A stretch of 44,452 nucleotides of DNA from Candidatus Krumholzibacteriota bacterium (GTDB lineage Bacteria; Krumholzibacteriota; Krumholzibacteriia; Krumholzibacteriales; Krumholzibacteriaceae): the NCBI GenBank assembly GCA_030609325.1, contig JAUWCL010000028.1, positions 1 to 44,452 of the forward strand. Direction: 5' to 3'. The first letter of the stretch is position 1; each line of letters begins with the position of its first letter. Made by a program: the position numbers and the translations under genes. The notes under the pieces are model-generated. The model saw nothing but the letters and a program-made list of their open reading frames with translations, was not told the DNA's origin and ran no database searches. Shown piece after piece: positions 3,329-19,070 of this stretch.

Positions 3329-4363
3329 TTATGCCGCGCCTGCCCTTCCCGCTTCCCGGTCGATCAGCCTGCCGTTCATCGAGTGAAGTATAGCGCTGTC
3401 GAGGAGGAGTTCCTCTGGAAACGCCGTACTCTTCATGAGAATCTCGGTTGTCCTCAGGTTCTCCAGCCAGTTCATTACCTCGCGAGTCTTCAGCCTGCCG
3501 GCCTCAGCCTTTAGCTTATCGTATCTGTAACCTCCTCCACCCTGTCCCGCCTTGATACGCAGCAGGGCCAGAAAGTGGTGTATCAACTGGTAGACTACAA
3601 CAGAGGGCCTTTCCGCACCAGAAGTAATGATGCCGGACAAGATCATCAGCACGGAGGCCGGATCGCCCTTTCCGATACTGTCAAGCATGTCGAAGACGCT
3701 CCTCATCCTGTAGCTGCCAATCACGGACGCCACATCCTTCACGGTTACGCGCCCACCCTCGAAAGCCACGCCGAGCTTGTCCAGCTCGTTGCTGAGATTG
3801 TAGAGGTTCGTTCCAGCGCTCGAGAGCAGGCTGCTGACAGCCCTGTCGTCCATCTCGAAGTTGAGTCGTTTCGCCCTCGTGGAGACCCACTTTCTCACCC
3901 CGCTGTCGTTAAGGCGGTCGAACTGGATCACCCTGCCCCTGGCCTTGACCGTCTTCTCCAACGCGGCGAAATCCCTTGGTGGCCTGATCCTCCTCCCCTT
4001 GTCGTCGTGAGTGGCGAAGAGGAGGATGACTATCGTCGAATCGACGGGTTCGCTGCAGTATTCGACAAGCTGCTTCCACCTGCCCTTCAACCGCTCCAGC
4101 TCACGGATGATCATGACCCTCCGGTCCGAGAGAAACGGGAAGGAACGGGCCGTAGAGACAAAGGTCTTCATATCGATCTCGGAACCGTGGTTGACGCTGA
4201 GGTTGAAACTCCTCATGTCCTTCTGGACGAACCTGACGGCCAGACGCGTCGCCATCTCCTCCATCACAAGGTACTCCTCGCCCATGAGAAGATATACCGG
4301 CAGCGCCTCTCCCGAGTCGATCTCCGCGAATGTTTTCCTGTAGTAGTCGAGTCCGGCTCTCAT
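3329..4363 (-). CDS. holA: DNA polymerase III subunit delta
   Basis: A clamp-loader subunit that opens the beta sliding clamp. The 344 residues match the family length. The N-terminal part resembles a degenerate AAA+ domain (ALPVYLLMGEEYLVMEE, about residues 19-35), and the helical collar domain contains the typical LSNELDKL helix (about residues 197-204) and a C-terminal region rich in Leu and Ile. It has no functional Walker A, as expected for delta. It begins three bases after the lptE stop; the lptE-holA pair is a widely conserved neighbourhood that usually also includes leuS, which is present here three genes downstream. Confidence 0.92.
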   Translation of the reverse strand: MRAGLDYYRKTFAEIDSGEALPVYLLMGEEYLVMEEMATRLAVRFVQKDMRSFNLSVNHGSEIDMKTFVSTARSFPFLSDRRVMIIRELERLKGRWKQLVEYCSEPVDSTIVILLFATHDDKGRRIRPPRDFAALEKTVKARGRVIQFDRLNDSGVRKWVSTRAKRLNFEMDDRAVSSLLSSAGTNLYNLSNELDKLGVAFEGGRVTVKDVASVIGSYRMRSVFDMLDSIGKGDPASVLMILSGIITSGAERPSVVVYQLIHHFLALLRIKAGQGGGGYRYDKLKAEAGRLKTREVMNWLENLRTTEILMKSTAFPEELLLDSAILHSMNGRLIDREAGRAGAA

Positions 4364-4366
4364 GGC

Positions 4367-4882
4367 CTACCAGTCCTGAACGGTTGCGGCGATTATGCCC
4401 TCGACGAGATCCTGGTAGACCTCTTCGAGAGCTTTCTCGTAGTTCTGGTCTCCGGTCGTTTCCAGATAGTAATCACCGTGCGCCCTTATCACCTTGTTCT
4501 CGTAGATGTACTCGTTCTGTGAGGGGCTGAATAGCGACACCTGTATCTCAATCAGCAGACGGTACTGATCGGCCTGTATCTGTGTCTCGGTATGTTCGAA
4601 CGTGAACGGCGTATTCCTGAATTTCATGACCGCGCCTTCGAGGGTCGCGTCTGCCTCTGTCTCGTCGACGACCTTCAGCGTGTTGTCCTTCACGATCCCG
4701 AGTATTATCTGGTCAGTGATCTCGATCTCCACGTCGGGCTCGGAAGTCTTGTTCGATAAATACGGCACCGAGATCCTGGCAATGTCGCCGGCCGTTCTGC
4801 TCGTCGTCCTGTAATACGAGCATGACGAGGCGATAAAAACTCCCGCCAGCGCGATGGTCATTGCTAGAGCCCTGCTATTCAT
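4367..4882 (-). CDS. lptE: LptE-like LPS assembly lipoprotein
   Basis: Outer-membrane lipoprotein predicted to partner LptD in placing lipopolysaccharide at the cell surface. A 171-residue protein with a short signal peptide and lipobox IASSC directly followed by SYY. The body has the LptE-type pattern: ISVPYLSNKTSEPDVE, then a DATLEGAVMKF strand, then a YRLLIEIQVSLF strand, and a conserved C-terminal helix with LVEGIIA. I chose the ATG at 4882: GGTGG lies eight bases upstream, it overlaps the regulator stop by eight bases, and it gives a compact signal peptide. An upstream ATG at 4897 is possible. Family call from pattern and from the neighbouring holA. Confidence 0.8.
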   Translation of the reverse strand: MNSRALAMTIALAGVFIASSCSYYRTTSRTAGDIARISVPYLSNKTSEPDVEIEITDQIILGIVKDNTLKVVDETEADATLEGAVMKFRNTPFTFEHTETQIQADQYRLLIEIQVSLFSPSQNEYIYENKVIRAHGDYYLETTGDQNYEKALEEVYQDLVEGIIAATVQDW

Positions 4883-6296
4883 CCTCGTTTCCACCATGTC
4901 CCATATCGAAGTTTTTCAGCCTGTATCTGAGCTTGTCGCGTTTCAGGCGCAGGAGCCTCGCGGCCCTGCTCTGATTCCCGCCGACTTCCTTCATCGCCTT
5001 GGATATCAATTCCATCTCCGTATCCCTGACCAATTCCTCGAATTCTATGCCGTCACCGGGGAACGGCCTCCCGAGCGCGACTTCAAGCTGCTGCACTACA
5101 GATTTCCGGGTGGCGTCAGAACCGCCGCTGCGTATGCTCTCGGGCAGATGCGCCGGTCTCAGGACGTAATCGTCCTCGAGGAGAACTATCCTCTCGACTA
5201 TGTTCTTTAACTCGCGGATGTTTCCCGGCCACGGATAGGAAAGGATCATCTCGAACGTCTCGTCTTCCACCTCGCCGAAGTTCTTGTTGAACTGCTTGTT
5301 GAACTTGTTGAGAAAATGCTTGAGCAGAACGAATATGTCCTCCTTGCGCTCACGCAGCGGTGGGATGAAGATCGGAATCACCTTGAGCCTGTAATAGAGA
5401 TCCTCGCGGAATGTCTTCTCCCGGACTGCCGTCTCGAGATCCTTGTTTGTCGCGGATATGATCCTGACGCTGACCTTTATATCTTTGGTCCCCCCTACCC
5501 TCCTGAATGTCATACGTTCGAGCACCCTCAGAAGCTTCACCTGAATAGTGAGGCTCATCTCCCCGATCTCGTCGAGGAACAGGGTGCCCTTGTGGGCTAG
5601 TTCGAGCAGCCCTACCTTCTGGGCCTTCGCATCGGTAAAGGCTCCCTTCTCGTGCCCGAAGAGCTCGCTCTCAAGAAGCTCCTCGGGCAGAGAGGCACAG
5701 TTGATCTCGAGAAAAGCCTTGTCATGCCGGGGGCTGTAGCGGTGGATCATGTTGGCGATTATTTCCTTGCCCGTCCCGCTCTCGCCCTGGATGAGGATCG
5801 TCGTGGTCTCGCTCTGCGCTACCGTCTGCACTACGCCGTAGATCTCCTTCATCCGGGCGCTCTCCCCGGGGACGTATCCGTCCATGTCGATCTTGAGCCT
5901 GCGCCTGAGCTGGAAGAGTTCCCTGTTCAGCTTCTGTGACTCCAGTCCCTTCTCGACTGTCAGGAGCAGCTGCTCGAGGTTCACCGGTTTGCTGACAAAA
6001 TCGAAGGCGCCCTTCTTTATGGCGGATACCGCGGTCTCTATGTCACCAAAGGCAGTCAGCATTATGACGCTGACCTCGGGGACCTCTTCCTTCACCCGCT
6101 GAAGGACCTCGATTCCGTTGATATCGGGAAGTTTCAGGTCGAGCAGGATCAGGTCGGGCAGCTCGCTTCTCGTCAGCTCTAGCGCCTCTTCACCGGTGGC
6201 GGCTGTAAGGGCCTCATACCCCTCGTCCCTCAGCGTCTTTTCAAGAAACAGACGTATGGTGTCTTCGTCATCTACCAGAAGCACTACCGGTTTCAA
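4875..6296 (-). CDS. Sigma-54 activating response regulator, NtrC type
   Basis: Phosphorylation-controlled activator of sigma-54 RNA polymerase, 473 residues. Receiver domain about 1-120 with phosphoacceptor Asp53 (in LLDLKLPD) and Lys103. Central AAA+ domain about 143-375 with Walker A GESGTGKE (171-178), the sigma-54 contact loop GAFTDA (218-223) and Walker B LFLDEIGEM. C-terminal Fis-type helix-turn-helix (about 430-465, GGNQSRAARLLRLKRDKLRYRL). The start is TTG with GGGAGG five bases upstream, and it overlaps the kinase gene by 29 bases, so the two are translated together and surely form a pair. Targets are not stated by the sequence, but two sigma-54-like promoters lie within 13 kb (see 9318-9333 and 19055-19070). 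Confidence 0.95.
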   Translation of the reverse strand: MKPVVLLVDDEDTIRLFLEKTLRDEGYEALTAATGEEALELTRSELPDLILLDLKLPDINGIEVLQRVKEEVPEVSVIMLTAFGDIETAVSAIKKGAFDFVSKPVNLEQLLLTVEKGLESQKLNRELFQLRRRLKIDMDGYVPGESARMKEIYGVVQTVAQSETTTILIQGESGTGKEIIANMIHRYSPRHDKAFLEINCASLPEELLESELFGHEKGAFTDAKAQKVGLLELAHKGTLFLDEIGEMSLTIQVKLLRVLERMTFRRVGGTKDIKVSVRIISATNKDLETAVREKTFREDLYYRLKVIPIFIPPLRERKEDIFVLLKHFLNKFNKQFNKNFGEVEDETFEMILSYPWPGNIRELKNIVERIVLLEDDYVLRPAHLPESIRSGGSDATRKSVVQQLEVALGRPFPGDGIEFEELVRDTEMELISKAMKEVGGNQSRAARLLRLKRDKLRYRLKNFDMGHGGNEDE

Positions 6297-8352
6297 CTTT
6301 TCCTCCCTGTACTGGACGCGTCACAGGCAGATAGACGCGGAATATCGTACCATCACCGGGCTCCGAAATCACCTTTATACACCCCTGATGGTGCTGAATT
6401 ATACTGTGAGTCACGAAAAGCCCCAATCCCGTCCCTCCCTTCTTCCTCGAGAAAAACGGCAGGAATATTTTCTGTTTGTCCCTCCCGTCTATCCCCGGTC
6501 CGTCGTCCGCAACATCTATTATGAAGAGATCCTTCCCTCGCTGCCTCCGCACCTCGGGATCGCTGTCGTCGAACGGGTTCACCTTTACGCTGACCTTCCC
6601 CCCCTCATCGACCGCCTCTGCCGCGTTCTTGATCAGATTGATCAGCACCTGAGTGATCTGGTCGGGATCGACCACGACCTTCGAGATGTCGGGTGCGATA
6701 CTGCTGCTGAACTTTACCTTCCTGGACTCTATGACATCGCTGACAGACTTGTACGATTTCTCGACGATCATGGCCAGGTCGGATTCCTGATACAGGAGAT
6801 CCCGCGGCTTGGCAACCTTGAAGAGATCCGTGATTATCCTGTTGAGCCTCGCCACCTCGCCGAGTATATGCGAGATGTTCTCCTTTTGCTCCTCGTTCAG
6901 TTCGGAGCTCCGGTCGAGATACTGGATACCAGCTGCTATACCTGTAAGGGGGTTTCTGATCTCGTGGGCGATTGCCGAAGTGAAGCGTCCGAGAACGGCA
7001 AGGTTGTCCAGGTGCCTGATCGCCTCTTCCATCCTCTTTATCTCGCTTAGATCGGAGAAGAGGACGATTGCTCCCTGTGTCTCGTTGTCGTCACCTATGA
7101 GCCTGGACACATTCATCCTGACCGGCATGCAGGAATCCTCCGGATGCATGAGGTAAGCCTCGTGAAACGCTATCGGATCCTTAGTACCCAGCGCCATGAA
7201 GACCGGTGAGCCGTTGCGTCCCTTTCCCGAATCGTCATCGCTGATAAGCTCGTCGATATGCCTGGAGAGTATCTCCTGCTCGTCGAGCCCGCTCATCTCT
7301 CTCGCGCTCCTGTTGGCGAACGTTACGTTCCCTTCCATATCGGCCACGATCAGCCCGTGCATCATCCCCTCGAAGACCTTTTCCCGGAATCTCTCCTCCT
7401 GGCGCAGCTCCTGGTAGAGCATCCAGTTCTCCATGTTCGAGCCGACGAGGGATCCGACCGTCTCTACTGTGACCTGGTCTATGTTAGTCAGTGAGGTGGC
7501 CCTGTATCCGTCCGTAACGATAAGCGCGCCGAGAAGCGGCAGGTCGGGGCATGACAGGCATTCGGTGCGGGTCAGGAGGGACGTCAGCTCGCCGGAGGCC
7601 TTGTCGAAGTTCCCCGTCTGTCTGAGGATACAGGAATCGTTCTCGCAGCATTTCCAGTCGCCTGAGGATTTCATCAGAGGCACGCAGATATATGACTCCA
7701 TCGTACTGCCCGGGAAGAGCATTTCCCCCTCGACGTCTATCAGGGGGTGCATCCTGACATCCTTGATGAGAAAGGCTTTCCCTGTGGCCAGGGAGTTCCT
7801 GACAACCCCGTCCAGATCCTCAAGCCCGAAGTTCACGACGCGGCGTACGAGCTTGGTGACCCTCTCGATCGTCACAATAGCCTGGAAACACTGCTTCTTT
7901 CTGCGGAGTATTATGAATGCCGCTTCCTTGTAGCCCACGCCATGCACCAGATAATCGAAGACAGAATCGACCAGCTTTTTCTCGTCCAGTGAGCTTATGA
8001 TGCTCCGTCCGATCTCCTTAAGGCTGAGCAACTGGATATTCTTTTCCACGAGCTTGAAGAGGGTCCTCTCGAGGTCGGTCAGGAGGGTGATTATCATCCT
8101 GTAGAAGACGTCGTCGCCCGTGTCCCCGATATTCTCGTCGAGAAAGAGCCCTTCGCTTTTGAGATTCGACAGCCGCTTCTGGATGTTCTCTATCCGCTTT
8201 CCGCGCAATCGCCTCCGCCTCCAGCCGACGAGAGCGACCACGGCGAGCCCCGCCGGGATGAGAAACCAGGCGGACGGGGGCCACAGTACGGCAGATACGA
8301 GAAAAACCGTATATATAATGGCCATCAAGAGATAATCGTGCATCCAACGCAT
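6268..8352 (-). CDS. Sensor histidine kinase with GAF and PAS domains
   Basis: Membrane sensor kinase of 694 residues. Two hydrophobic segments at the N-terminus (about residues 8-45) with a very short loop are followed by a basic stretch and a coiled region. A GAF domain spans about 115-310 and carries a cluster of five cysteines (CC-x4-C and CLSC). A PAS domain (about 325-440) precedes the dimerisation domain with the H-box HEIRNPL, the N-box NLIKNAAEAV and the G-boxes DDGPGI and GGTGLGL. The ATG at 8352 is preceded by GGTGA, which favours it over an in-frame GTG at 8361. It has its own sigma-70-like promoter and overlaps its regulator. Architecture recalls the PrsK kinases of PEP-CTERM polysaccharide loci but with only two membrane segments; the ligand is unknown. 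Confidence 0.94.
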   Translation of the reverse strand: MRWMHDYLLMAIIYTVFLVSAVLWPPSAWFLIPAGLAVVALVGWRRRRLRGKRIENIQKRLSNLKSEGLFLDENIGDTGDDVFYRMIITLLTDLERTLFKLVEKNIQLLSLKEIGRSIISSLDEKKLVDSVFDYLVHGVGYKEAAFIILRRKKQCFQAIVTIERVTKLVRRVVNFGLEDLDGVVRNSLATGKAFLIKDVRMHPLIDVEGEMLFPGSTMESYICVPLMKSSGDWKCCENDSCILRQTGNFDKASGELTSLLTRTECLSCPDLPLLGALIVTDGYRATSLTNIDQVTVETVGSLVGSNMENWMLYQELRQEERFREKVFEGMMHGLIVADMEGNVTFANRSAREMSGLDEQEILSRHIDELISDDDSGKGRNGSPVFMALGTKDPIAFHEAYLMHPEDSCMPVRMNVSRLIGDDNETQGAIVLFSDLSEIKRMEEAIRHLDNLAVLGRFTSAIAHEIRNPLTGIAAGIQYLDRSSELNEEQKENISHILGEVARLNRIITDLFKVAKPRDLLYQESDLAMIVEKSYKSVSDVIESRKVKFSSSIAPDISKVVVDPDQITQVLINLIKNAAEAVDEGGKVSVKVNPFDDSDPEVRRQRGKDLFIIDVADDGPGIDGRDKQKIFLPFFSRKKGGTGLGLFVTHSIIQHHQGCIKVISEPGDGTIFRVYLPVTRPVQGGKVETGSASGR

Positions 8353-8370
8353 ATAAGTCACCAGTGATAG

Positions 8371-8438: not shown

Positions 8439-9254
8439 TCAGCAGGCGCCTTTCCCCGATATGACGACGTAGACCGTCTTGAAAAGGATATTGATCTCCT
8501 GGGGTAGGGAGAGTTGAGAGATATACTTGAGATCGTAGTAGAGCTTCCCCTTCATCTTCTCCACCGTATCGGCATAGCCGTCCTCGACCTGTGCGAGTCC
8601 GGTGATCCCGGGCTTGACCTTCAGTCTCAGCGGGAATTCGGGCACTTCCTGGCGGACCTGGTTGATGAAGAAGGACCTCTCGGGTCTCGGCCCGACGATG
8701 CTCATGTCGCCCCTGATGACATTGATGAACTGCGGGATCTCGTCGATCCGCGTGCGGCGGAGCAGGTAACCGATCTTCGTTATCCTCGAATCGCCCTTGC
8801 TGGAAAGTTCCGGTCCCGTCTTTTCCGCGTCGATACGCATTGTCCTGAGCTTGTATATGTTGAACGGCTTGCCGTTGTGGATCTTCTTCCGCCTGTCGTT
8901 GTCCCTTCTCCGGTCGGGTCCGTCGTATCCATCCGAGATGTATCTCCGGCGGTCGCTCTTTCTCCTGTTCAGCCCTATCCTCTCCTGCTGGAAGAAGACC
9001 GATCCGGAGGACTCAAGCCTTATGAGAACAGCAACCACCATGATGACCGGCGAAAGGAGCATAAGCGCCGCTCCGGCGAAAATGACGTCGAAAATCCTCT
9101 TGATCCTCTCGGACGCCGAGGACATCCCCGTATCATCTCTGCCGACGATGCCGGCCAGGTATCCGATGTCGCTGACAAAAGGATCCAGAGCGATCCTTGC
9201 CATCGGAATCGACATGTCGAGATTGCTCACAGCTGTTCTGTTGAATACTACCAA
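8439..9254 (-). CDS. Polyprenyl-phosphate sugar-1-phosphate transferase
   Basis: Initiates repeat-unit synthesis by moving a sugar phosphate from a UDP-sugar to the lipid carrier at the inner membrane. The 271 residues show the conserved core: KRIFDVIFAGAALMLLSPV membrane helix (about 52-70), then RLESSGSVFFQQERIGLN, KLRTMR, the DE-P region RIDEIPQFINVIRGDMSI and GPRPERSFF, ending with GITGLAQV. It lacks the four-helix N-terminus of WcaJ-type enzymes. A basic insertion of about 31 residues splits the core after IGLN. The start is uncertain: TTG at 9254, or ATG at 9215. It is the last gene of the polysaccharide cluster and has a sigma-54-like promoter upstream. Confidence 0.92.
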   Translation of the reverse strand: MVVFNRTAVSNLDMSIPMARIALDPFVSDIGYLAGIVGRDDTGMSSASERIKRIFDVIFAGAALMLLSPVIMVVAVLIRLESSGSVFFQQERIGLNRRKSDRRRYISDGYDGPDRRRDNDRRKKIHNGKPFNIYKLRTMRIDAEKTGPELSSKGDSRITKIGYLLRRTRIDEIPQFINVIRGDMSIVGPRPERSFFINQVRQEVPEFPLRLKVKPGITGLAQVEDGYADTVEKMKGKLYYDLKYISQLSLPQEINILFKTVYVVISGKGAC

Positions 9255-9317
9255 CTCGGACCGTTCGCACCTTTACGGTTTGGATATACCTTCCCCAGAT
9301 CGACTAATCGGAAAGAT

Positions 9318-9333
9318 TGCAAATTCCGTACCC
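9318..9333 (-). promoter_or_regulatory. Sigma-54 (RpoN) type promoter before the sugar transferase
   Basis: Minus strand GGGTACGGAATTTGCA. Compared with the RpoN consensus TGGCACGnnnnTTGCA it differs at two of twelve specified positions and keeps the invariant GG and GC with ten bases between them. It lies in a 281-base intergenic space between the FN3 lipoprotein stop (9536) and the sugar transferase. Predicted start is near 9306, leaving a leader of about 50 to 90 bases. The rest of the space shows no other gene that I can support. Confidence 0.65.
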
Positions 9334-9535
9334 TTTCATCGCCTGAGCCACTTTGCGTGGAATACGGTTTATATTCCACTCGTAATCTGTTGCAGTACAA
9401 GCAGAAAGCGAATGTTACGCCTTTGCACAAGTAATGTCCGGCAAACTGCGCGCCTCAAAACATAGGTAAAAACACCCATATTAATTAAGTGAGGTGGGAA
9501 ATTTTACGCAATTAATACCGCTTATCCTGGCCAGA

Positions 9536-11080
9536 TCACGGGGTTGCTGTCGTTACCTCGTTGCTGCGCGAGCTCCGTCCACCCAGATCGTAAACCAGAG
9601 CCCTATAATAGTACGAATTCGCGCCGGTGTCAAGCCCCATATCGTCAAACCACGTTATTTCCCTGTCGATTATGGCAGTCACGAGCTGAGAGGATTCGGT
9701 GACCCCGGGCGATGTTGCCCTGTATATCCGGTATTCCGAGAAATCGGAGTCAGGGTTTATCGTCCATTCGAGTGTGAGCCTGTCTGAACCGATTGCTGAA
9801 GGGTCGCTAAGCGTGACCGGTATCGGGATGGCATCGTATGTCGATGCGGCTATCTCGTTGCTCCCCGACGCCTCCCCGAGGTCGTTCACGACGTATATCC
9901 TGTAGTAGTACCTCACACCCTGGTCGAGATCGGAATTGGGATATGTAGTCTGACTCCGGAAATCGAGGCCCTGGACAAAGAGGGCCGGATCATCGGTGAC
10001 CCCGGCCTGCGTATCACGGTATATCCTGTAGGCCACGAAGTTCTCCTCGTCCGATTCTTCCCATCTGATCGTGATCATATTGGTCGTCGAGTCTATAGAT
10101 CCGATAAGCTGCACCGCATCCGGTGGGTCGGTAAAGGAGATCCTGCCGGTCAACTCGAGTGGAACGGCCTGGTTCCCGACGCGGTCGGTGAAGATTCCTG
10201 CCACGACGAGATCCGTTCCCCGGAACAGGGACGGGAAGATGTAGTCCGCCTCGTAACTACCGTCTCCAGCGACCGGGTCTCCCCCCCTTCCGTCGTCGAA
10301 GAGATCGATCGGCCCTGCGGACAGGCCCTCGATATCGACCGATGCCGATCCGCCGGTCTCGTCCCCCTCCACCCAGATTGCGAGATGGACTGTCGATCCG
10401 GGACTGTAGATGTGCGGTTCGGGAGTGATCGTGATATCCTCTATGCCGGAGTACGTATCGAGCTCTATCGACGCGCTGACCGCCGGTGACAACGCTCCCG
10501 TCTGGTCCTGAAACGAAACATATACCGTCTTCACGCCGTCACCCTCCGTCAGCACCCATCCCCTCGAAGTCGAAAAGCCTTCCCATACTGTCGATCCGAA
10601 ATCGGGGATATCCGAGATCCGCATCACGGCCGTCGAGGCCGGGGCGGTCAGGGCTAGTTCGACGACCCTCGTCCCCGTATATTCCAGGCCTCCGTTGATC
10701 AGCAGCGAATATACCGAGGGTGTAGCGGGAACAGGTTCCGACCTTGCGCTCTCCACGCCCGATGAACCGATGGAAGAGACCGAATAGAGGTACTGAATCC
10801 CGTTGGAAACCGCCTCGTCGACATGGAAGGTATCGACCGTCTCGGCGATTCTTACCCACGCCTCGCCCAGGGTGGCGGACCTGTACAGCCTGTACGCTGC
10901 CGCCTCCTCTACGGATGTCCAGGAAAGCGCTATCTGCCCGTCGCCCGTGACGGTTCTGATGCTGGAAGGCGCCTGCAGATCCTCATCCTCGATGACCAGG
11001 GGTACCTCCTCGATATCCTCGAGGCAGGACGGCAACATGACAGCCGCAATAATCAGCATATAGAACATCATTTTCGTCAT
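9536..11080 (-). CDS. FN3-repeat lipoprotein
   Basis: A 514-residue protein with a lipoprotein signal (lipobox LPSC, Cys at about residue 19), so it is probably anchored in the outer or inner membrane. Three fibronectin type III-like domains can be traced: about 35-122, 330-425 and 428-514. The last two are clear repeats of each other (AYRIYRDTQAGVT against EYRIYRATSPGVT, and YYYRIYVVNDLGEASGSNE against YYYRALVYDLGGRSSRSNE). The middle, about 125-325, is beta-rich and includes a segment with FDDGRGGDPVAGDGSYEAD. No enzymatic motif is seen. GGAGG sits eight bases before the ATG. Position inside the polysaccharide operon suggests a surface or periplasmic structural role. Confidence 0.75.
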   Translation of the reverse strand: MTKMMFYMLIIAAVMLPSCLEDIEEVPLVIEDEDLQAPSSIRTVTGDGQIALSWTSVEEAAAYRLYRSATLGEAWVRIAETVDTFHVDEAVSNGIQYLYSVSSIGSSGVESARSEPVPATPSVYSLLINGGLEYTGTRVVELALTAPASTAVMRISDIPDFGSTVWEGFSTSRGWVLTEGDGVKTVYVSFQDQTGALSPAVSASIELDTYSGIEDITITPEPHIYSPGSTVHLAIWVEGDETGGSASVDIEGLSAGPIDLFDDGRGGDPVAGDGSYEADYIFPSLFRGTDLVVAGIFTDRVGNQAVPLELTGRISFTDPPDAVQLIGSIDSTTNMITIRWEESDEENFVAYRIYRDTQAGVTDDPALFVQGLDFRSQTTYPNSDLDQGVRYYYRIYVVNDLGEASGSNEIAASTYDAIPIPVTLSDPSAIGSDRLTLEWTINPDSDFSEYRIYRATSPGVTESSQLVTAIIDREITWFDDMGLDTGANSYYYRALVYDLGGRSSRSNEVTTATP

Positions 11081-11098
11081 CAGGTTTTCCTCCGCTTA

Positions 11099-12211
11099 TC
11101 AGAATCTGTACACCAGAGAGGCGTGCGTCGGGCCGACGCTGAATGACAGGTCGGACGGCGGAGCGTCCTCGCGCCCCGGTATAAATGTATCTATCACGCC
11201 CGCGGCCCATATCCCGGAAAGGATTCCGTAGGAGATATTCCTCCATCTGCGCGTCTTGTCCACATCGGCCCAGTACTCTGCCGACTTTTCAAGGAAATAC
11301 TTCTTTTCCTCTACGGTCTCGGCCCCGTCGTAATATTCCAGGTTTATTTCGTAGGCGTTTACCGCCTCTTCGTACATGTTCAGGTAATCCAGCGCAACGA
11401 GAACGCCCGCCGTCGAGGCGAGCGAGTAGAACAGGCTCCTTGATCTCTTGCCCTGGTAGAACTGGCCCCGGCCGGGCCGGAACAATGACAGAAGGACGGC
11501 CTTCGCCGTGCTCGACCCAGACCCGCTGATCTCCACGACCGAGCCGCCGGCAGTGATCCGGGCCTTCGGAGGATTCCCGACGATCCACGGGTCGATCAGC
11601 TGAAAGGCGTACATGTAAGCCATGTATCCTAGACAGCGCTGGCTGTACTTGTTCTGGACGTTGAGGTCTCGCGAAGCTGTGTGAGCGTCGATCCTGATCC
11701 GCTGCCTGTCCTCGACGTTGTCCGCGGCCTCCAGCTGCGCCATCAGGATGTTGTGCCTGTTCTCTATGTGCTGATATTCATTATATTCCCTCAGCGTTAC
11801 CATTCCCGCTACCGCGAGGGAGATCAGATCGCTCCAACCTGCTTCCTTCCTTCCTGCGTGTATCGAGCCCCACCCGGGCAGGATATTCCTCGCAAACGTT
11901 CCGAGACGGTTGCCCCTGACGCAGGGAACGCCGTTCCCGTCCAGCGACAGGTACCCTCGCCTGACCTCGAACCCGCGTCCCCTGACCGTCATGTCGTAAG
12001 CGAGCCCGGGCTCCAGATTACAGAGAGTCATGGGTACCGTACCGCTCAGGATCATTCCTCTTCGCAGCTCTACCAGAAGGTCGCTGGAATCGCCGGAGAA
12101 GTGTATGCAGAGTGAACCCCGCACTCCGGGCGAGCCCTGGGCATATGCATGCCCGTATATCGCAGCAAAGGCAACAGCTGCCGTAATGAATATCATCTTT
12201 GATCTCTTCAT
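11099..12211 (-). CDS. Exported protein with duplicated DUF5683-like module
   Basis: A 370-residue protein with a Sec signal peptide (cleavage likely after AYAQ). A short PEGA-like beta segment follows (about 30-95), then two similar modules at about 104-212 and 236-345. Each begins with a Pro-Gly-x-Gly turn and a small basic stretch (LPGWGSIHAGRKEAG and FRPGRGQFYQGKRSR), followed by a hydrophobic helix, a charged coiled region of about 50 residues, and a second hydrophobic helix ending near IDPWI or IDTFI. This resembles DUF5683-type membrane modules. The C-terminus SLVYRF ends in Phe like many outer-membrane proteins. Function unknown. It lies between the BY-kinase and the FN3 lipoprotein in the polysaccharide operon. 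Confidence 0.75.
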   Translation of the reverse strand: MKRSKMIFITAAVAFAAIYGHAYAQGSPGVRGSLCIHFSGDSSDLLVELRRGMILSGTVPMTLCNLEPGLAYDMTVRGRGFEVRRGYLSLDGNGVPCVRGNRLGTFARNILPGWGSIHAGRKEAGWSDLISLAVAGMVTLREYNEYQHIENRHNILMAQLEAADNVEDRQRIRIDAHTASRDLNVQNKYSQRCLGYMAYMYAFQLIDPWIVGNPPKARITAGGSVVEISGSGSSTAKAVLLSLFRPGRGQFYQGKRSRSLFYSLASTAGVLVALDYLNMYEEAVNAYEINLEYYDGAETVEEKKYFLEKSAEYWADVDKTRRWRNISYGILSGIWAAGVIDTFIPGREDAPPSDLSFSVGPTHASLVYRF

Positions 12212-12251
12212 TGAATCCTCTGCTCATGCAGGGACGGATAGATCCGGCCCT

Positions 12252-12953
12252 CTACCTCTCGTCATCCTCCGTATATCCGTAATACCTGTAGTCATAGTAG
12301 TAGGGCAATACTTCGGACATGTTGTTCACAACGACGCCGAGGAGATTTGCGTTCGCGTCGAGGAGTATGTTCCTGGCCCTTATTGACACATTCCTGGGCG
12401 TTCTGCCAGCCAGCAGAACCAGAACGACCCCGTCTATCACGCTCGAGATCAGCATTGGATCGCTCACCGGGATTATCGGAGCGCTGTCCACTATCACTAT
12501 ATCGTAGTAGAACTTTATCTTCTCGAAGATCTCGGTCATGATATCACCCTCGAAAAGATGCGCCGGCGACTTGACCCGCCTTCCGGCCGGGATGATCTTG
12601 AGATTCTCTATGGGAGTATCCTTGATCGCCTCCAGGGGATCGATCTCTCCGTTCAGGCATTCGAACAGCCCCGGTTCCTTCGGCACGTCGAAGATCTCGT
12701 GGAGCTTCGGCTTTCTCAGGTCGGCGTCGACCACAAGGGATTTCCTGCCCCTGAACCTCGCCACGGTAAGCGCCAGATACGAGGCTACAGTGCTCTTGCC
12801 TTCCCCCCTGTCTGCGCTCGTGATGAGGAAACTCCTCTTCGGACTCCGTCCGTCGACATGCCTTATGTTCGAATAGAGACGCCTCATCTCGGTAGCGATG
12901 GGGCTCTCCTGGTCGAAGATCTCGTAGATAGTCTGCCTCTGGTCCTTGTCCAA
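12252..12953 (-). CDS. CpsD/Wzc-type bacterial tyrosine kinase (BY-kinase)
   Basis: Cytoplasmic P-loop tyrosine autokinase that controls polysaccharide polymerisation with the Wzz-like partner. The 233 residues carry Walker A TSADRGEGKST (45-55), Walker A-prime SLVVDADLR (72-80) and Walker B DIVIVDSAP (151-159). An N-terminal ExxR-type segment (TEMRRLYSNI, 21-30) matches the oligomerisation motif. The C-terminus is a tyrosine cluster with seven Tyr (YYYDYRYYGY) before an acidic end, the usual autophosphorylation tail. It is a separate gene from the Wzz-like protein, as in Firmicutes CpsC/CpsD. The start is TTG, three bases after the wzz stop, with GGAAGG six bases upstream. Confidence 0.93.
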   Translation of the reverse strand: MDKDQRQTIYEIFDQESPIATEMRRLYSNIRHVDGRSPKRSFLITSADRGEGKSTVASYLALTVARFRGRKSLVVDADLRKPKLHEIFDVPKEPGLFECLNGEIDPLEAIKDTPIENLKIIPAGRRVKSPAHLFEGDIMTEIFEKIKFYYDIVIVDSAPIIPVSDPMLISSVIDGVVLVLLAGRTPRNVSIRARNILLDANANLLGVVVNNMSEVLPYYYDYRYYGYTEDDER

Positions 12954-12956
12954 ATC

Positions 12957-14630
12957 CTACCTTCCCAGCAGGTCCTCGGTGAGTTCCACCCCGATGCTCG
13001 ATTCCTGCAGTGCTTTCGCGTAGATGAACATCGCCCCCGAGACCATCGTGATGAAGAGCAGCATGCCGATCGTCCAGATCAGGAATATCCTGCCCCGCTT
13101 CTTTCTCTCCCACTCGAAGTGGGAAACAGTCTTCGGTATGGTACCCAGGACCGGGAGCTTCAGTACCCGCTGAACCTCATCGACCGTCCTGAACGAATCG
13201 TCCATATATTCCGTCACGAGTATCGATCCGAGCCCGCAGATCATACCAAACATCGCCGCCATGACGATGACCTTCAGCCTGTCGGGCTTGACCGGTGTGA
13301 TCGGCCTTTCCGCCTTCTCTATCACGCTTATGCGTACACCGAGATTGGTGCTCTGTATCGCCTCGTTGATCTGAGCTGTAGTCTTTGACTCGAGGAACGC
13401 GTCATATATTGCCTGGTTCGTCCCGACCTCGTGAGCGAGCTTGCTCTCCTCGCGTTCGAGCTGAGGCCGCCTTCTTATATTATCCCTGTACTGTTCGACG
13501 AATCCTCCGAGCCTTCTCTCGATCGACCGGATGAAGTTCGTCTGCTTGCGCTGAAAGAAGTACTCGGTGATCAGGGGTTTCACATCGTTGGAGAACTCGC
13601 TGTATTCGTTGTGCACGATCTCCGAAACACGGGCCCGGAGTTCCTCCCAGATTGCTTCGTACTGGGTCAGGTCACTGACCGCAGTCTCGTTGCCCGACAG
13701 TTCCTGAAGTATTTTCCCCTCGGTATCTGCCAGGATCTGCCGTTCGATATTCGTCAGCGCCTCGTCTGTCGCGACACGGTCTGTCGACGGGATCATCCCG
13801 AATACCGATGTCAGCCTCTCCCTGACGCGCTTCAGCCCCATCTCGTTCCTGCCGACCTGTGCACCGAGCGATTTGATCCTCGCCTCCGCGGCATGAACGT
13901 TGCCGGCGTTGATCGGGTTGGTTCCGGCGCTCGTGGTGGCGAGCTCCCGCCTCACCCGGTCGATTTCCCGCTCCGCATCCTCGAGCTTCTCCTTGTATAT
14001 GGCGAGCTGCTCGTCGCTGAACGCGCCTGCCTGCCTCAGCCCCTGGAGCCTTGCCTGCCTGGTGACCTCGATATACTTGTCGCTTATTTTGGCTGCGAGG
14101 ACGTGGGCCGTACCTGGATTCGAATCAAGAACGCTGATACTGTAGAATCCGGGCAGGTTTGTTCTGACGTTTATCTTGTTGCGAAGTGTCATCACGAGGC
14201 TCCTGATCGCCAGCTCCTTCTCGGAGATACCCTCGTTGTCCCCGTTTCGCGAAGCCGATGCACTGAGCTCGTATGCCCTTAGCAGTCCGAGGTCCATGAT
14301 GACTGTCTCGAGGAACTCGCGGCTCATGACCCTCGTCTCGATCATCGCCTGGAACCTTCTGCTCTGATCCTGCCTCCGGTTCTCTACCGGGGTGATGTAC
14401 CTGCTCATAGTTCCGGCGAGGATGTTCTGCTCCTCGGCAGAGACCAGCGTGGAAGATTCATAAACGGGCGTGAGCTGCCTCACTCCGATAATGGCGATGA
14501 CGAGCGAGAGCACCAGCGGCACGATCATGTAGAATTTCTTCCTCCAGAATATCTTCCAGTAGGTATGCAGGTCTATCTTCTGCTCTTCGTCGTCGGGTAC
14601 GTATTTACGGACATTCTCCACTTTGTTCAC
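12957..14630 (-). CDS. Wzz-type polysaccharide co-polymerase / chain-length determinant
   Basis: An inner-membrane protein of 557 residues thought to set chain length and to link the BY-kinase with the exporter. Membrane segments are at about 33-52, near 450-467 (VIVMAAMFGMICGLGSILV) and near 517-542 (FLIWTIGMLLFITMVSGAMF). The long periplasmic part between the first two is coiled-coil rich (QLAIYKEKLEDAEREIDRV), and a GNVR-like stretch (ERPITPVKPDRLK) precedes the second. The third membrane segment and the region before it (EVQRVLKLPVLGTIPK) resemble the Wzz subfamily of PEP-CTERM/XrtA loci. It starts with GTG directly after the stop of the exporter gene. Confidence 0.9.
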   Translation of the reverse strand: MNKVENVRKYVPDDEEQKIDLHTYWKIFWRKKFYMIVPLVLSLVIAIIGVRQLTPVYESSTLVSAEEQNILAGTMSRYITPVENRRQDQSRRFQAMIETRVMSREFLETVIMDLGLLRAYELSASASRNGDNEGISEKELAIRSLVMTLRNKINVRTNLPGFYSISVLDSNPGTAHVLAAKISDKYIEVTRQARLQGLRQAGAFSDEQLAIYKEKLEDAEREIDRVRRELATTSAGTNPINAGNVHAAEARIKSLGAQVGRNEMGLKRVRERLTSVFGMIPSTDRVATDEALTNIERQILADTEGKILQELSGNETAVSDLTQYEAIWEELRARVSEIVHNEYSEFSNDVKPLITEYFFQRKQTNFIRSIERRLGGFVEQYRDNIRRRPQLEREESKLAHEVGTNQAIYDAFLESKTTAQINEAIQSTNLGVRISVIEKAERPITPVKPDRLKVIVMAAMFGMICGLGSILVTEYMDDSFRTVDEVQRVLKLPVLGTIPKTVSHFEWERKKRGRIFLIWTIGMLLFITMVSGAMFIYAKALQESSIGVELTEDLLGR

Positions 14631-15608
14631 CTATTGCAGTATCGCGTATACGGCTGCGTATGCCGTGACCGCGGCAAGCCAGAAACGCGGATCCCTGAAG
14701 ACCGACAGGCCCGAGGCTTCGGGCGGGACGTGGACCGTGTCGTCGGGTAGTATCAGCGGGTTGTGCCTGATGTCTCCCGTTTCGAGATATCGCCTGAAAT
14801 CGAAAGTCAGTGTGAGCTGCGCACCGTCGGGCATCGTCCTTATTACGTTGACCTTTTTCAGGTCGGCGTTTCCGGCCGCCCCTCCGGCGGCGAGGATGGC
14901 GTCCACCAGTGTCTTCTCGCCGGAAAGCACATACGGCCCTGGCGCAGCGACGGCGCCTACGACTCTGACCGAACCTGTGCCGGCATGTATCGCAGTGCTT
15001 TCGGATACGATGACAGCGTCGCCCGGCTCCAGGACGGGCAGATCGTCGAAGTTGCCCGACTCGATCGCCGCCTGCAGATCGACAATAAAGGTCCTCTGTC
15101 CCTCTCCTCCGGCGCGGATGATCCTGACTGTTTCGAGCGCCGCGGTCGATGTCGCTCCTCCGGCCTCCCTGATCGCCTCCCAGACGTTCGGGTTCTGTCC
15201 GAATCCGTATTTTCCCGGGACCTCGACCTCACCGTGAACGTAGATCATCCTCCTCGATTCCTCGCCGAGGAGATTGATCGATATCACCTGGACACTCGGG
15301 TAGATATCCCTCATAGATCTCAACAGGACATTTTCCGCCTCGTCGACAGACATTCCGCCGATCATGATCTCACCGATGATCGGAAGGGAGACGCGACCCG
15401 CCTCGTCTATGACCAGCCTTCTGTCGAGTTCGGAACGCTGGGGAACGGTCAGTTCAATCCTGTCCCCCGGCCTGAGCCTGATCGCCTGTGCGCCCAGTCC
15501 GGCAGGCAGCGAGAGCGCCGCTGCGACCAGCCAGATCGCGACCAGCATCAATCCTGTTTTCATATAGCCTTTCATCCTGCCTCTCATACCGGCCTTCAAG
15601 GTAGCCAC
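14631..15608 (-). CDS. Wza-like polysaccharide export protein (SLBB)
   Basis: Outer-membrane or periplasmic export channel subunit, 325 residues. Signal peptide with cleavage likely after GLGAQA; no lipobox is visible, unlike E. coli Wza. A poly-export domain (about 40-115, IRLRPGDRIELTVPQ) precedes two SLBB repeats (IYVHGEVEVPGKYGF and VRVVGAVAAPGPYVLS, about 130-210 and 217-290). A hydrophobic C-terminal segment (FWLAAVTAYAAVYAIL) may be a membrane helix. Start is uncertain: GTG at 15608, or ATG codons at 15587 (GAAGG upstream), 15575 or 15563. It directly precedes the Wzz-like gene. Confidence 0.92.
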   Translation of the reverse strand: MATLKAGMRGRMKGYMKTGLMLVAIWLVAAALSLPAGLGAQAIRLRPGDRIELTVPQRSELDRRLVIDEAGRVSLPIIGEIMIGGMSVDEAENVLLRSMRDIYPSVQVISINLLGEESRRMIYVHGEVEVPGKYGFGQNPNVWEAIREAGGATSTAALETVRIIRAGGEGQRTFIVDLQAAIESGNFDDLPVLEPGDAVIVSESTAIHAGTGSVRVVGAVAAPGPYVLSGEKTLVDAILAAGGAAGNADLKKVNVIRTMPDGAQLTLTFDFRRYLETGDIRHNPLILPDDTVHVPPEASGLSVFRDPRFWLAAVTAYAAVYAILQ

Positions 15609-15644
15609 AGTCCTTTCCGCGTGTAAAGGGAAAAGGGAATCCCG

Positions 15645-16586
15645 TCAGGGCGCTCCGGACTGCCTGTACCATTCGACCGTCCTCTTCAGTCCTTCCCCGA
15701 AAGCTTTCTCGACGGAGTAGCCGAGCAGCTCCTCCGCCATCGAGATATCAGCATGTGAATGTTTGACGTCGCCCGGCCTCGGATCCGCGTATACCGGATC
15801 GATCGATACGCCGATCAGCTCGCAGAGCATACCGTACAGCTCGTTCAGCGTGAATCTTCCACCGCAAGCAACATTGACGACCTGGCCAGCGGCCTTTTCA
15901 CTCTGCGCGGCCATGATATTGGCCTTGACTATATTGCCCACATAAGTGAAATCCCTGCTCTGCTCTCCGTCTCCGAAAATCGTGGGACTCTTCCCATCGA
16001 GAAGATGGGAGATGAAGATCGGAATCACCGCCGCATACTGGGACGCAGGATCCTGTCTCGGGCCGAACACGTTGAAATAGCGTATGCTTATCGTCGGCAA
16101 CCCGTATACCTTTGAATATACCGAGCAGTAATGCTCACCGACGAGCTTGCTCACGGCGTACGGGGAAAGCGGGGCCGGCAGCATGTCCTCTCTTTTGGGC
16201 AGGGCTTCGCTGTCTCCGTAGGCGGAAGAGGATGCCGCATAGACAACGCACTTTACGCTCGCGTGCCTCGACTCGTCCAGAACAGTGAGCGTGCCGCCGA
16301 CGTTGACCTCGTTGACGAGCAGCGGTTCGTCTATGCTCCTCGGAACCGATGCCAGTGCCGCCTGATGTAGGACGTAATCGACGCCGTCGAGCGCTATTCT
16401 TACTTCCGACGCGTTCCTGACATCGCCCTTCACAAATGTGACGTCCTGCCGGAAATGTTCGATGTTTCCCTCGTGGCCCGTAGACAGGTTGTCGAAAACG
16501 ACTACCTCCTCGCCCATTTCTACGAGTTCCTCCGCGATGTTGGAACCGATGAATCCGGCCCCTCCGGTTACGAGATATCTCGCCAT
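15645..16586 (-). CDS. NAD-dependent UDP-sugar 4-epimerase, WbpP/TviC-like
   Basis: Short-chain dehydrogenase/reductase of 313 residues. Rossmann motif TGGAGFIGSN (7-16), catalytic S-S-S with YAVSK (about 143-147, in APLSPYAVSKLVGEHY), and the substrate region RYFNVFGPRQDP. Sequence features fit UDP-GlcNAc or UDP-GlcNAcA 4-epimerases. Next to the UDP-sugar 6-dehydrogenase this suggests a supply of UDP-GalNAcA for the polysaccharide, as in the TviB/TviC and WbpO/WbpP pairs; the actual substrate cannot be read from the sequence. ATG with CGGAGG upstream. Confidence 0.9.
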   Translation of the reverse strand: MARYLVTGGAGFIGSNIAEELVEMGEEVVVFDNLSTGHEGNIEHFRQDVTFVKGDVRNASEVRIALDGVDYVLHQAALASVPRSIDEPLLVNEVNVGGTLTVLDESRHASVKCVVYAASSSAYGDSEALPKREDMLPAPLSPYAVSKLVGEHYCSVYSKVYGLPTISIRYFNVFGPRQDPASQYAAVIPIFISHLLDGKSPTIFGDGEQSRDFTYVGNIVKANIMAAQSEKAAGQVVNVACGGRFTLNELYGMLCELIGVSIDPVYADPRPGDVKHSHADISMAEELLGYSVEKAFGEGLKRTVEWYRQSGAP

Positions 16587-16608
16587 GTATCCTCCGTTTC
16601 AGCAGGTT

Positions 16609-17904
16609 CTAGAGGGTGACGATACTGTCGGAGTCGAAATTCCTCAAAACGTTTCTCGAATCGAAGATCATCGGGCAGTTTTCCACCAGCACGGAGTAAT
16701 CAACATCGGTATGACCGGTCACAACGATCGCGCAGTCCATTCCGGCCACGCTGCCCGCGTCATACTCGAGTAATTCGGCCGATCCGATCTTCTCCTCGAG
16801 TTCCTCGACGAACGGATCGTTCCAGTAAACATCCGCACCCATCCTGCTGAGCAGACGTATGATGTCGTAGGCGGGAGATTCCCTGGTATCGTCTATGTCC
16901 TTCTTGTATGAGACCCCCATTATGAGGATCTTCGAGCCGTTCAGGCATTTCTTTCGCTCGTTGAGAGCTTCTGAAACTCTCACCACGACGTACCCCGGCA
17001 TGTCGCCGTTGATCATTCCGGCCAGCTCGATGAATCTCGCTTCGAACCCGCTCTGCTTCGCCTTCCACGAGAGATAGAACGGATCGATCGGTATGCAGTG
17101 TCCGCCGAGCCCGGGACCGGGATAGAAGGGCATGAAACCAAACGGCTTGGTAGCCGCTGCATCTATGACTTCCCAGACATTGATGCCCATCCTGTTGCAC
17201 ATCATCGCGATCTCGTTCACTAGCCCGATGTTGACGCTCCTGAATGTGTTCTCCAGCAGTTTGACCGTCTCCGCGACTCTCGTCGAACTGACGGGAACTG
17301 GATTCATCCCCGCGGCGCTGTACAGCATGGCCGCCAGTTCGGTGCAGGCCGGCGTAACGCCCCCGACGACCTTCGGTATGTTCTTCGTCGTGTACTGCTT
17401 GTTTCCGGGATCGACTCTCTCGGGAGAGAATGCCAGGTAGAAATCCTTTCCCACCTTCAGACCGGTCTCCTCAAGGAGGGGAAGCAGCACTTCCTCCGTG
17501 GTGCCCGGATATGTCGTGCTCTCGAGTATGATCAGCTGGCCCTTGTGGATGTATTTCCGGATCTCCTTGAGCGCAGCCACGATATAGGAAATATCCGGGT
17601 CTTTCGTCTTTCGGAGCGGTGTGGGAACGGCGATATTAATCGTGTCCACATCAGACAGGACTGAAAAATCGTCAGTCGCGCGAAGGATACCGGATCCGAC
17701 CACCTCCGACAGCTCATCCCCGTCGACATCGCCGATATAGCTCCTGCCGGCGTTGAGCTGTTCCACCTTCCAGCTGTCTATATCGATTCCCACCGTCTCG
17801 AGGCCCGCCTTGGCAAATTCCACCGCAAGGGGCATCCCGACATATCCCAGTCCGATGATCGATTGAAGTGCCTTGTTTTTGGCCAGTTTCTCCCTGAGTT
17901 CCAA
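16609..17904 (-). CDS. Nucleotide-sugar 6-dehydrogenase, WbpA/UDP-GlcNAc type
   Basis: Oxidises UDP-GlcNAc (or UDP-Glc) to the uronic acid using two NAD. The 431 residues contain the N-terminal Rossmann motif GLGYVGMPLA (18-27), the central ESTTYPGTTEE segment, and the active-site loop GLGGHCIPIDPFYLSW with catalytic Cys270. The IDPFYLSW form is typical of the UDP-GlcNAc 6-dehydrogenase branch rather than UDP-glucose dehydrogenase. The start is TTG with AAAGGGGG upstream. It is the first gene of the polysaccharide operon and has a good promoter just upstream. Confidence 0.93.
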   Translation of the reverse strand: MELREKLAKNKALQSIIGLGYVGMPLAVEFAKAGLETVGIDIDSWKVEQLNAGRSYIGDVDGDELSEVVGSGILRATDDFSVLSDVDTINIAVPTPLRKTKDPDISYIVAALKEIRKYIHKGQLIILESTTYPGTTEEVLLPLLEETGLKVGKDFYLAFSPERVDPGNKQYTTKNIPKVVGGVTPACTELAAMLYSAAGMNPVPVSSTRVAETVKLLENTFRSVNIGLVNEIAMMCNRMGINVWEVIDAAATKPFGFMPFYPGPGLGGHCIPIDPFYLSWKAKQSGFEARFIELAGMINGDMPGYVVVRVSEALNERKKCLNGSKILIMGVSYKKDIDDTRESPAYDIIRLLSRMGADVYWNDPFVEELEEKIGSAELLEYDAGSVAGMDCAIVVTGHTDVDYSVLVENCPMIFDSRNVLRNFDSDSIVTL

Positions 17905-17968: not shown

Positions 17969-19018
17969 TCAGGCACGCCCGGCGAATTCTAGGCTGGAAT
18001 AGGTCCTGATGCTGTCTTTTCCATCTGATTTCGCCTTATACAGGGCAGTGTCCGCCCTGTCTATGATCTTCTCGATATTAATAGCGTCATCAGGGTATAC
18101 GGAGATCCCGATGCTGCAGGTGAGAAGCCCCGGCGTAATCCCGTCGAACATGTATCTCTTTACACCCTCGAGCACCCTCTGCCCGTACATGATCGCTCCC
18201 TCTCCCGAGGTGCCCGGAAGAAGGATCCCGAATTCGTCCCCCCCGTATTTCGCCACGATGTCTATCTCCCTGCTGCTTTCCTTCAGAACAGAGGCGATGT
18301 CCGTCAGTGCCCTGCTTCCCGACAGGTGTCCGTTCCTGTCGTTGTAGTCCTTCAGATTGTCCACGTCGAGCATGAGAAAGGAGAACATCGAGTTGAACCT
18401 CTTCGCTCTCTTGATCTCCACCTTCAGCGACCGGATGAGGAACCTGTAATTGTATACACCGGTCAGCCCGTCCGTGATCGATTCCATCTCGAGTTTACGG
18501 TAGAGAAGATAGTTCTCGAAAGCGATGGCCCCCTGGTTAGCCATTATCGTCATCAGGTGGATATCGTCCTCGCTGAAATGCTCCAGCTCCTGGTCCTGGA
18601 TCGCGAGGATCACACCGAGAAGGGAGTTATTGGCCATCAGCGGGGCGGAGATCACCATCGTGGACCTGTCGTCACTGTCGAGGCATTCCGCCGCGAGAGT
18701 CGACAGGTCTATGGCAAAAACGCCGTCGCCCGCCCTCGGCATGCTGACTTCCCGGTTCAGCCAGTTCAGGATCCCGTCCGATTCGGGCAGCTCCTCGACG
18801 CTGATCTTCCTTCCCCTGTCCTGTCTCTCCCCCGTGTACTTGACGATTCTGTGATCGTCCACATAGATCAGGTACACCTTCCTGGCCGGTAGCAGATCGA
18901 GTGCTACATTGAGGATCTTGTTGAATATGACCCTGTTATCCTTACCGAGACTGATCAGGCTGCTGATCTCGGTGAAAGCGCTGAAGAGGATATCCTTATC
19001 GTCGATCCTGCCGGGCAT
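17969..19018 (-). CDS. GAF-GGDEF diguanylate cyclase
   Basis: Predicted to make cyclic di-GMP. The 349 residues hold a GAF-like sensor domain (about 8-175) and a C-terminal GGDEF domain (about 180-340). The signature is intact (KYGGDEF, GGDEF at 259-263), and an inhibitory I-site RxxD (REID, 250-253) lies at the usual five-residue distance, so product feedback is likely. LDVDNLKDYNDRNGH matches the metal and base binding region. No membrane helix is seen, so it is cytoplasmic. Start ATG with GAAGGGAG upstream. It sits just ahead of the polysaccharide operon and has a sigma-54-like promoter, which suggests control of polymer synthesis. Confidence 0.94.
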   Translation of the reverse strand: MPGRIDDKDILFSAFTEISSLISLGKDNRVIFNKILNVALDLLPARKVYLIYVDDHRIVKYTGERQDRGRKISVEELPESDGILNWLNREVSMPRAGDGVFAIDLSTLAAECLDSDDRSTMVISAPLMANNSLLGVILAIQDQELEHFSEDDIHLMTIMANQGAIAFENYLLYRKLEMESITDGLTGVYNYRFLIRSLKVEIKRAKRFNSMFSFLMLDVDNLKDYNDRNGHLSGSRALTDIASVLKESSREIDIVAKYGGDEFGILLPGTSGEGAIMYGQRVLEGVKRYMFDGITPGLLTCSIGISVYPDDAINIEKIIDRADTALYKAKSDGKDSIRTYSSLEFAGRA

Positions 19019-19054: not shown

Positions 19055-19070
19055 AGCAAGAGATATGCCA
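19055..19070 (-). promoter_or_regulatory. Sigma-54 (RpoN) type promoter before the diguanylate cyclase
   Basis: Minus strand TGGCATATCTCTTGCT keeps all of TGGCA and TTGCT with GG and GC at the correct ten-base distance, and differs from TGGCACG only in its last two bases. Predicted start is near 19043, about 25 bases before the ATG. It lies in the 127-base gap after the small membrane protein gene. Confidence 0.65.

Follow-up and report, generated by a model that had tools for sequence, protein, structure and literature searches.

Conserved predicted sigma-54 promoters and a candidate tandem enhancer at an exopolysaccharide locus of Candidatus Krumholzibacteriota

Genes and predicted control elements of the locus

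The window, by which we mean the whole stretch of 44,452 nucleotides that was analysed, belongs to a metagenome-assembled genome (MAG) of Ca. Krumholzibacteriota (2.63 Mb, 95% complete); those relatives of the locus that carry names are Candidatus Krumholzibacteriota MAGs. Two units of polysaccharide genes lie on its reverse strand, and each is faced by a predicted sigma-54 promoter, here called P1 and P2. In the direction of transcription the features are as follows:

19055–19070, reverse strand: second predicted sigma-54 promoter, P1 (TGGCATATCTCTTGCT), 36 nt ahead of the start codon of the GAF-GGDEF gene
17969–19018, reverse strand: GAF-GGDEF diguanylate cyclase gene, with which the assembly unit begins
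9536–17904, reverse strand: remainder of the assembly unit, genes named below
9495–9510, reverse strand: distal palindrome (TGCGTAAAATTTCCCA), centre at about −195 from the predicted start, 32 bp from the proximal palindrome
9463–9478, reverse strand: proximal palindrome (TGGGTGTTTTTACCTA), centre at about −163 from the predicted start
9318–9333, reverse strand: predicted sigma-54 promoter P2 (GGGTACGGAATTTGCA; −24 GG, −12 GC), from sequence and family conservation
8439–9254, reverse strand: polyprenyl-phosphate sugar-1-phosphate transferase gene (PF02397, Bac_transf), first gene of the P2 unit
6268–8361, reverse strand: sensor histidine kinase gene with PAS domain, 3′ of the sugar transferase
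4875–6296, reverse strand: NtrC-type response regulator gene (REC, Sigma54_activat, Fis HTH), the product of which presumably activates P2
4367–4897, reverse strand: LptE-like gene, after the regulator gene and perhaps transcribed with it
3329–4363, reverse strand: holA-like gene (DNA polymerase III delta), after the LptE-like gene and perhaps on the same transcript

The part of the assembly unit between 9536 and 17904 encodes a UDP-sugar dehydrogenase, an epimerase, a Wza-like export protein, a Wzz-like chain-length protein, a tyrosine autokinase, a DUF5683 protein and an fn3 protein (gene 9536–11080). The start codon of the sugar transferase gene is TTG, and some relatives have ATG at the same position. 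The order transferase–kinase–regulator–LptE–holA–leuS is kept in the family and in the sister family, to the limits of the contigs; the extents of both operons are predicted ones. The first-pass annotation, made from the letters of the DNA, had placed a sigma-54 activator gene two genes downstream, and an NtrC-type activator gene does lie two genes 3′ of the transferase, within one run of genes. It had also named the presence of rpoN as a check on the promoter; the genome contains this gene in a single copy (PF04552, E 6.7e-64), along with some 21 strong genes for sigma-54 activators.

The P2 promoter core and the paired palindromes

P2 faces the sugar transferase gene (8439–9254) from within the 281 nt that separate this gene from the fn3-protein gene (9536–11080). 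Of the 12 positions that TGGCACGNNNNTTGCW specifies it matches 10, with 10 nt between the GG and the GC, and its transcript start is predicted near 9307. The earlier description of a near-consensus sigma-54 site is thus borne out, by sequence and by conservation, in its GG/GC spacing, its intergenic place and its direction. With score weights derived by hand from the published consensus ahead of any look at the family, only two sites on either strand of the window reach the score of P2 or above, namely P2 itself and P1, which scores better; Markov-shuffled copies of the window average 0.1 such sites.

Across three congeneric genomes the P2 16-mer is 94% identical, compared with 43% for the preceding 100 nt and 56% for the following 50 nt. 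A −24/−12 element is present at the equivalent place in each of the 18 family loci whose upstream sequence is long enough (2.5 expected from shuffles), and lies 73–99 nt 5′ of the start where the match extends to the start codon. Three sister-family loci (L229–L231) also have an equivalent of P2, and good −24/−12 matches occur 5′ of the transferase homologue in loci from elsewhere in the class (other families; L232, L234, L236, L238, L239) and in most of the examined loci of Zixibacteria and related groups (L078–L098), positioned there relative to the protein match rather than the start codon. We consider P2 very probably to be a functional sigma-54 (RpoN) promoter of the sugar transferase gene. 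A second sigma-54-like match (AGGCGCGCAGTTTGCC), starting 122 nt 5′ of P2, was rejected, as it is absent in another of the genomes compared (G002).

Further upstream lie two 16-bp palindromes in tandem, each of the form TGsG-N8-CsCA, in which the N8 is mostly A/T; the proximal one is identical across three congeners. When loci are aligned on the −24 element, the pair is present in 18 of 18 family loci and 3 of 3 sister-family loci. Its scores in these 21 loci (26.6–31.6, against 21.1, sd 1.4, in shuffles) are descriptive, because the pattern was defined on the family itself, and searches of the source genome and of the family genomes provide the fairer test. In the source genome, the copy at P2 is the only AT-cored tandem match. 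Matches occur in 12 family genomes, in each of them at P2, and three more lie elsewhere in total; the reversed control gave matches in two family genomes. One genome (G006) has a second palindrome pair, although no sigma-54 site with a score of at least 18 was found between this pair and the next gene.

The spacing within the pair is 31–32 bp from centre to centre, equal to three helical turns. In 19 of the 21 loci the proximal palindrome begins either 145–147 or 154–157 bp 5′ of the P2 16-mer; these two classes lie roughly one helical turn apart, which is what would be needed by an activator that loops to the polymerase on one face of the helix. The tandem palindromes are very probably the enhancer of P2. 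Between the palindromes and P2 there is also a perfect 8-bp inverted repeat (GTGGAATA-N7-TATTCCAC, 9357–9379), which is unique in the genome; it was considered as a conserved enhancer and rejected, being degenerate in both congeners.

P1, the downstream regulator and a proposed circuit

P1 is found in all 17 of the family loci, against 0.38 expected, with its first base 52–66 nt 5′ of the start of the protein match. The first-pass annotation had held that commitment to polymer synthesis, and not assembly, is the step under RpoN control. A conserved P1 before the assembly genes speaks against this, and corrects the view of RpoN control as limited to the committing enzyme: both the start of the polymer and its assembly appear to be under RpoN. 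An enhancer shared between the two promoters was rejected, since no TGsG-N8-CsCA pair was found at the family P1 loci; palindromic words do occur above chance near P1, and likely reflect the coding sequence of the gene upstream. As P1 lacks the palindrome pair, its activator is probably a different one.

The kinase encoded 3′ of the transferase (6268–8361) has a cysteine cluster, C238-x5-C244-x23-C268-x2-C271, in its N-terminal sensor part. All 17 homologues have cysteines 244, 268 and 271, and 15 have cysteine at position 238, which suggests a metal or redox sensor. The regulator (4875–6296) carries REC, an AAA+ sigma-54 interaction domain and a Fis HTH, the last highly conserved as NQSxAxxLLxLxRDKLRYRxK. 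The textbook loop for contact with sigma-54 is GAFTGA; in all 19 homologues of the regulator this loop is instead GAFTDA, with GAFT retained.

This regulator, encoded in the P2 unit, is probably the activator of P2, although its altered loop counts against this; that it binds the palindrome pair and activates its own operon is the most economical reading. It could instead be that P2 is a true sigma-54 promoter driven by another activator, with the downstream regulator acting elsewhere. The number of strong activator genes in the genome (21) speaks for this, as does the lack of the pair at P1, which makes it probable that the cluster has one or more further activators; moreover, in more distant members of the class (f6) the regulator gene adjoins the transferase gene, but a clear P2 or a recognisable enhancer was not found there. 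We nonetheless consider another activator unlikely, given that, wherever the contig of a family or sister-family locus is long enough, the regulator gene and the pair stand together within one run of genes, and that the pair is essentially restricted to P2.

Alternatively, most of the transferase mRNA might come from a sigma-70 promoter or from transcription that runs on out of the assembly genes, leaving P2 a minor role. Nothing resembling a terminator was found between the assembly unit and the P2 unit, so read-through into the transferase gene is possible, and there is one strong sigma-70-like match (TTGACA-17-TATTAT, 9633–9605). This match, however, lies within the fn3 coding sequence, and two congeners keep the sequence with TACTAT in place of TATTAT. 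Sigma-70-like matches between 9000 and 20000 occur only in chance number (5 found, 5.8 expected), and none among them is a convincing promoter before the assembly genes, so that the sigma-70 promoter previously assigned to those genes did not hold up. P2 and the palindromes, in addition, are evidently maintained by strong selection, and we regard a minor role for P2 as less probable still. Finally, a chance −24/−12 match at P2 is most improbable: a bare consensus match is weak evidence, because the genome has no more one-mismatch matches to TGGCACNNNNNTTGC than to the reversed control (107 against 154, for which lack of enrichment the scan was rejected as proof of an RpoN regulon), but the occurrence of the element in every family locus, its identity relative to the flanks and the near-fixed palindrome spacing refute chance in practice.

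With the downstream regulator taken as the activator of P2, a circuit can be outlined. The two promoter cores, the palindrome pair, the gene order, rpoN and the conservation of these elements are read directly from the DNA; from them we infer the identity of the binding activator, its phosphorylation, looping and feedback. P2 would drive the sugar transferase, the sensor kinase and the NtrC-type response regulator. The phosphorylated regulator would bind the tandem palindromes (9510–9495 and 9478–9463), loop over some 165–195 bp to RNA polymerase–RpoN at P2, and open this promoter, such that the P2 operon would raise its own activator in a self-amplifying positive feedback. P1 would drive the diguanylate cyclase together with the assembly and export genes. 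More tentatively, and with rather less than even confidence, the kinase with its cysteine cluster and the regulator, the sole tandem enhancer of which would lie in its own operon, may form a dedicated switch with one target, making the start of the polymer self-amplifying and separate from a P1 switch with another activator.

Comparison with known systems and wider sigma-54 sites

In its working, the present locus comes closest to syp of Vibrio fischeri, a polysaccharide locus whose sigma-54 promoters are switched on by the NtrC-type response regulator SypG via upstream enhancers (PMC10162802; also Ray et al. 2013, as cited in PMC4517449). An NtrC-type regulator, sigma-54 promoters and upstream enhancer sites, here predicted ones, are common to both, whereas the phylum and the genes differ, and in the present locus the kinase and regulator genes come after the initiating transferase. 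The SypG site (TTCTCANNNTGMDWN; PMC10162802) also differs from the tandem TGsG-N8-CsCA pair, and the exact words TTCTCA and TGAGAA were not found on reading through the P2 intergenic sequence.

In gene order the closest parallel is Aquincola, in which prsK is directly 3′ of the sugar transferase gene epsB2 and prsR is in the same locus (PMC9850573); here, too, the kinase gene follows that of the transferase. PEP-CTERM genes controlled by PrsK/PrsR have a sigma-54 promoter with an upstream box, and an NtrC-type regulator with a tandem kinase (Haft 2006, PMC1569441). The box, a 17-nt motif that ends in TTTACA and averages 63 nt 5′ of the sigma-54 motif, was described in 2006 for Proteobacteria only (PMC1569441). 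Both its sequence and its distance differ from those at P2, and no TTTACA was seen, by reading, at such a distance on the promoter strand of the P2 intergenic sequence. The chain-length, tyrosine-kinase and export proteins of the window resemble XrtA versions, below cut-off. The window regulator reaches 388.2 of the 502.6 bits required by the PrsR model (TIGR02915), and the PrsK model (TIGR02916) is not among the best 25 matches of the window kinase. The window kinase and regulator were accordingly rejected as PrsK/PrsR by these cut-offs, PrsK being present elsewhere in the genome. The Aquincola exopolysaccharide genes are reported as seemingly outside RpoN1 regulation (PMC9850573).

PrsK itself is encoded on contig C9 of the source genome (G000). 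There, a perfect sigma-54 site (L271:3305–3320) lies 53 nt 5′ of a PEP-CTERM protein gene, with a TTTACA upstream of the site as in the PrsR box, and 3′ of the PEP-CTERM gene are an exosortase/EpsI-type gene and PrsK (TIGR02916, 303.5 bits, cut-off 300).

In Burkholderia cenocepacia, BerB and RpoN control berA and thereby the Bep exopolysaccharide (PMC5552954). This system shares sigma-54, an activator gene near an exopolysaccharide cluster and a link to c-di-GMP, given that a GGDEF gene heads the assembly unit here. BerB, however, works via a second regulator, whereas the promoters predicted here stand directly on the polysaccharide genes.

Sigma-54 has been proposed to govern the exterior of the bacterial cell (Francke 2011, PMC3162934). 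The placing of exopolysaccharide and lipopolysaccharide genes behind sigma-54 promoters, as set out there, is a pattern shared by the present locus; the article makes a general comparative statement and, in the portion consulted, does not describe this operon or enhancer. Sigma-54 control of exopolysaccharide genes is already known from syp, Francke 2011 and PrsK/PrsR. What the present locus adds is a well-supported further case with its own presumed enhancer motif. A literature search for Krumholzibacteriota with sigma-54 or exopolysaccharide found no relevant report. The proposed circuit, with its promoter cores and predicted enhancer, concerns a phylum known here from metagenome assemblies alone; it suggests that beyond Proteobacteria, too, exopolysaccharide genes are themselves under sigma-54, and its precise 16-bp motif is open to testing in vitro.

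Most of the other TGGCAY-N5-TTGC sites examined are intergenic, and they face the genes of PilM, of a PilB-type ATPase and of a sensor kinase, as well as a lipid A acyltransferase gene that precedes rpoN, in agreement with the proposal on the bacterial exterior (PMC3162934). The acyltransferase gene has its own TGGCACATTAATTGCT site (L249:6739–6754, G000 contig C39), with rpoN downstream, and because of this position rpoN may itself be under sigma-54. Finally, sites resembling TGGCA-N6-TTTGCT lie about 260–345 nt 5′ of the sugar-transferase match in most of the examined loci from Zixibacteria and others (L078–L086, L098), a hint that sigma-54 control of the sugar transferase extends to a neighbouring phylum.
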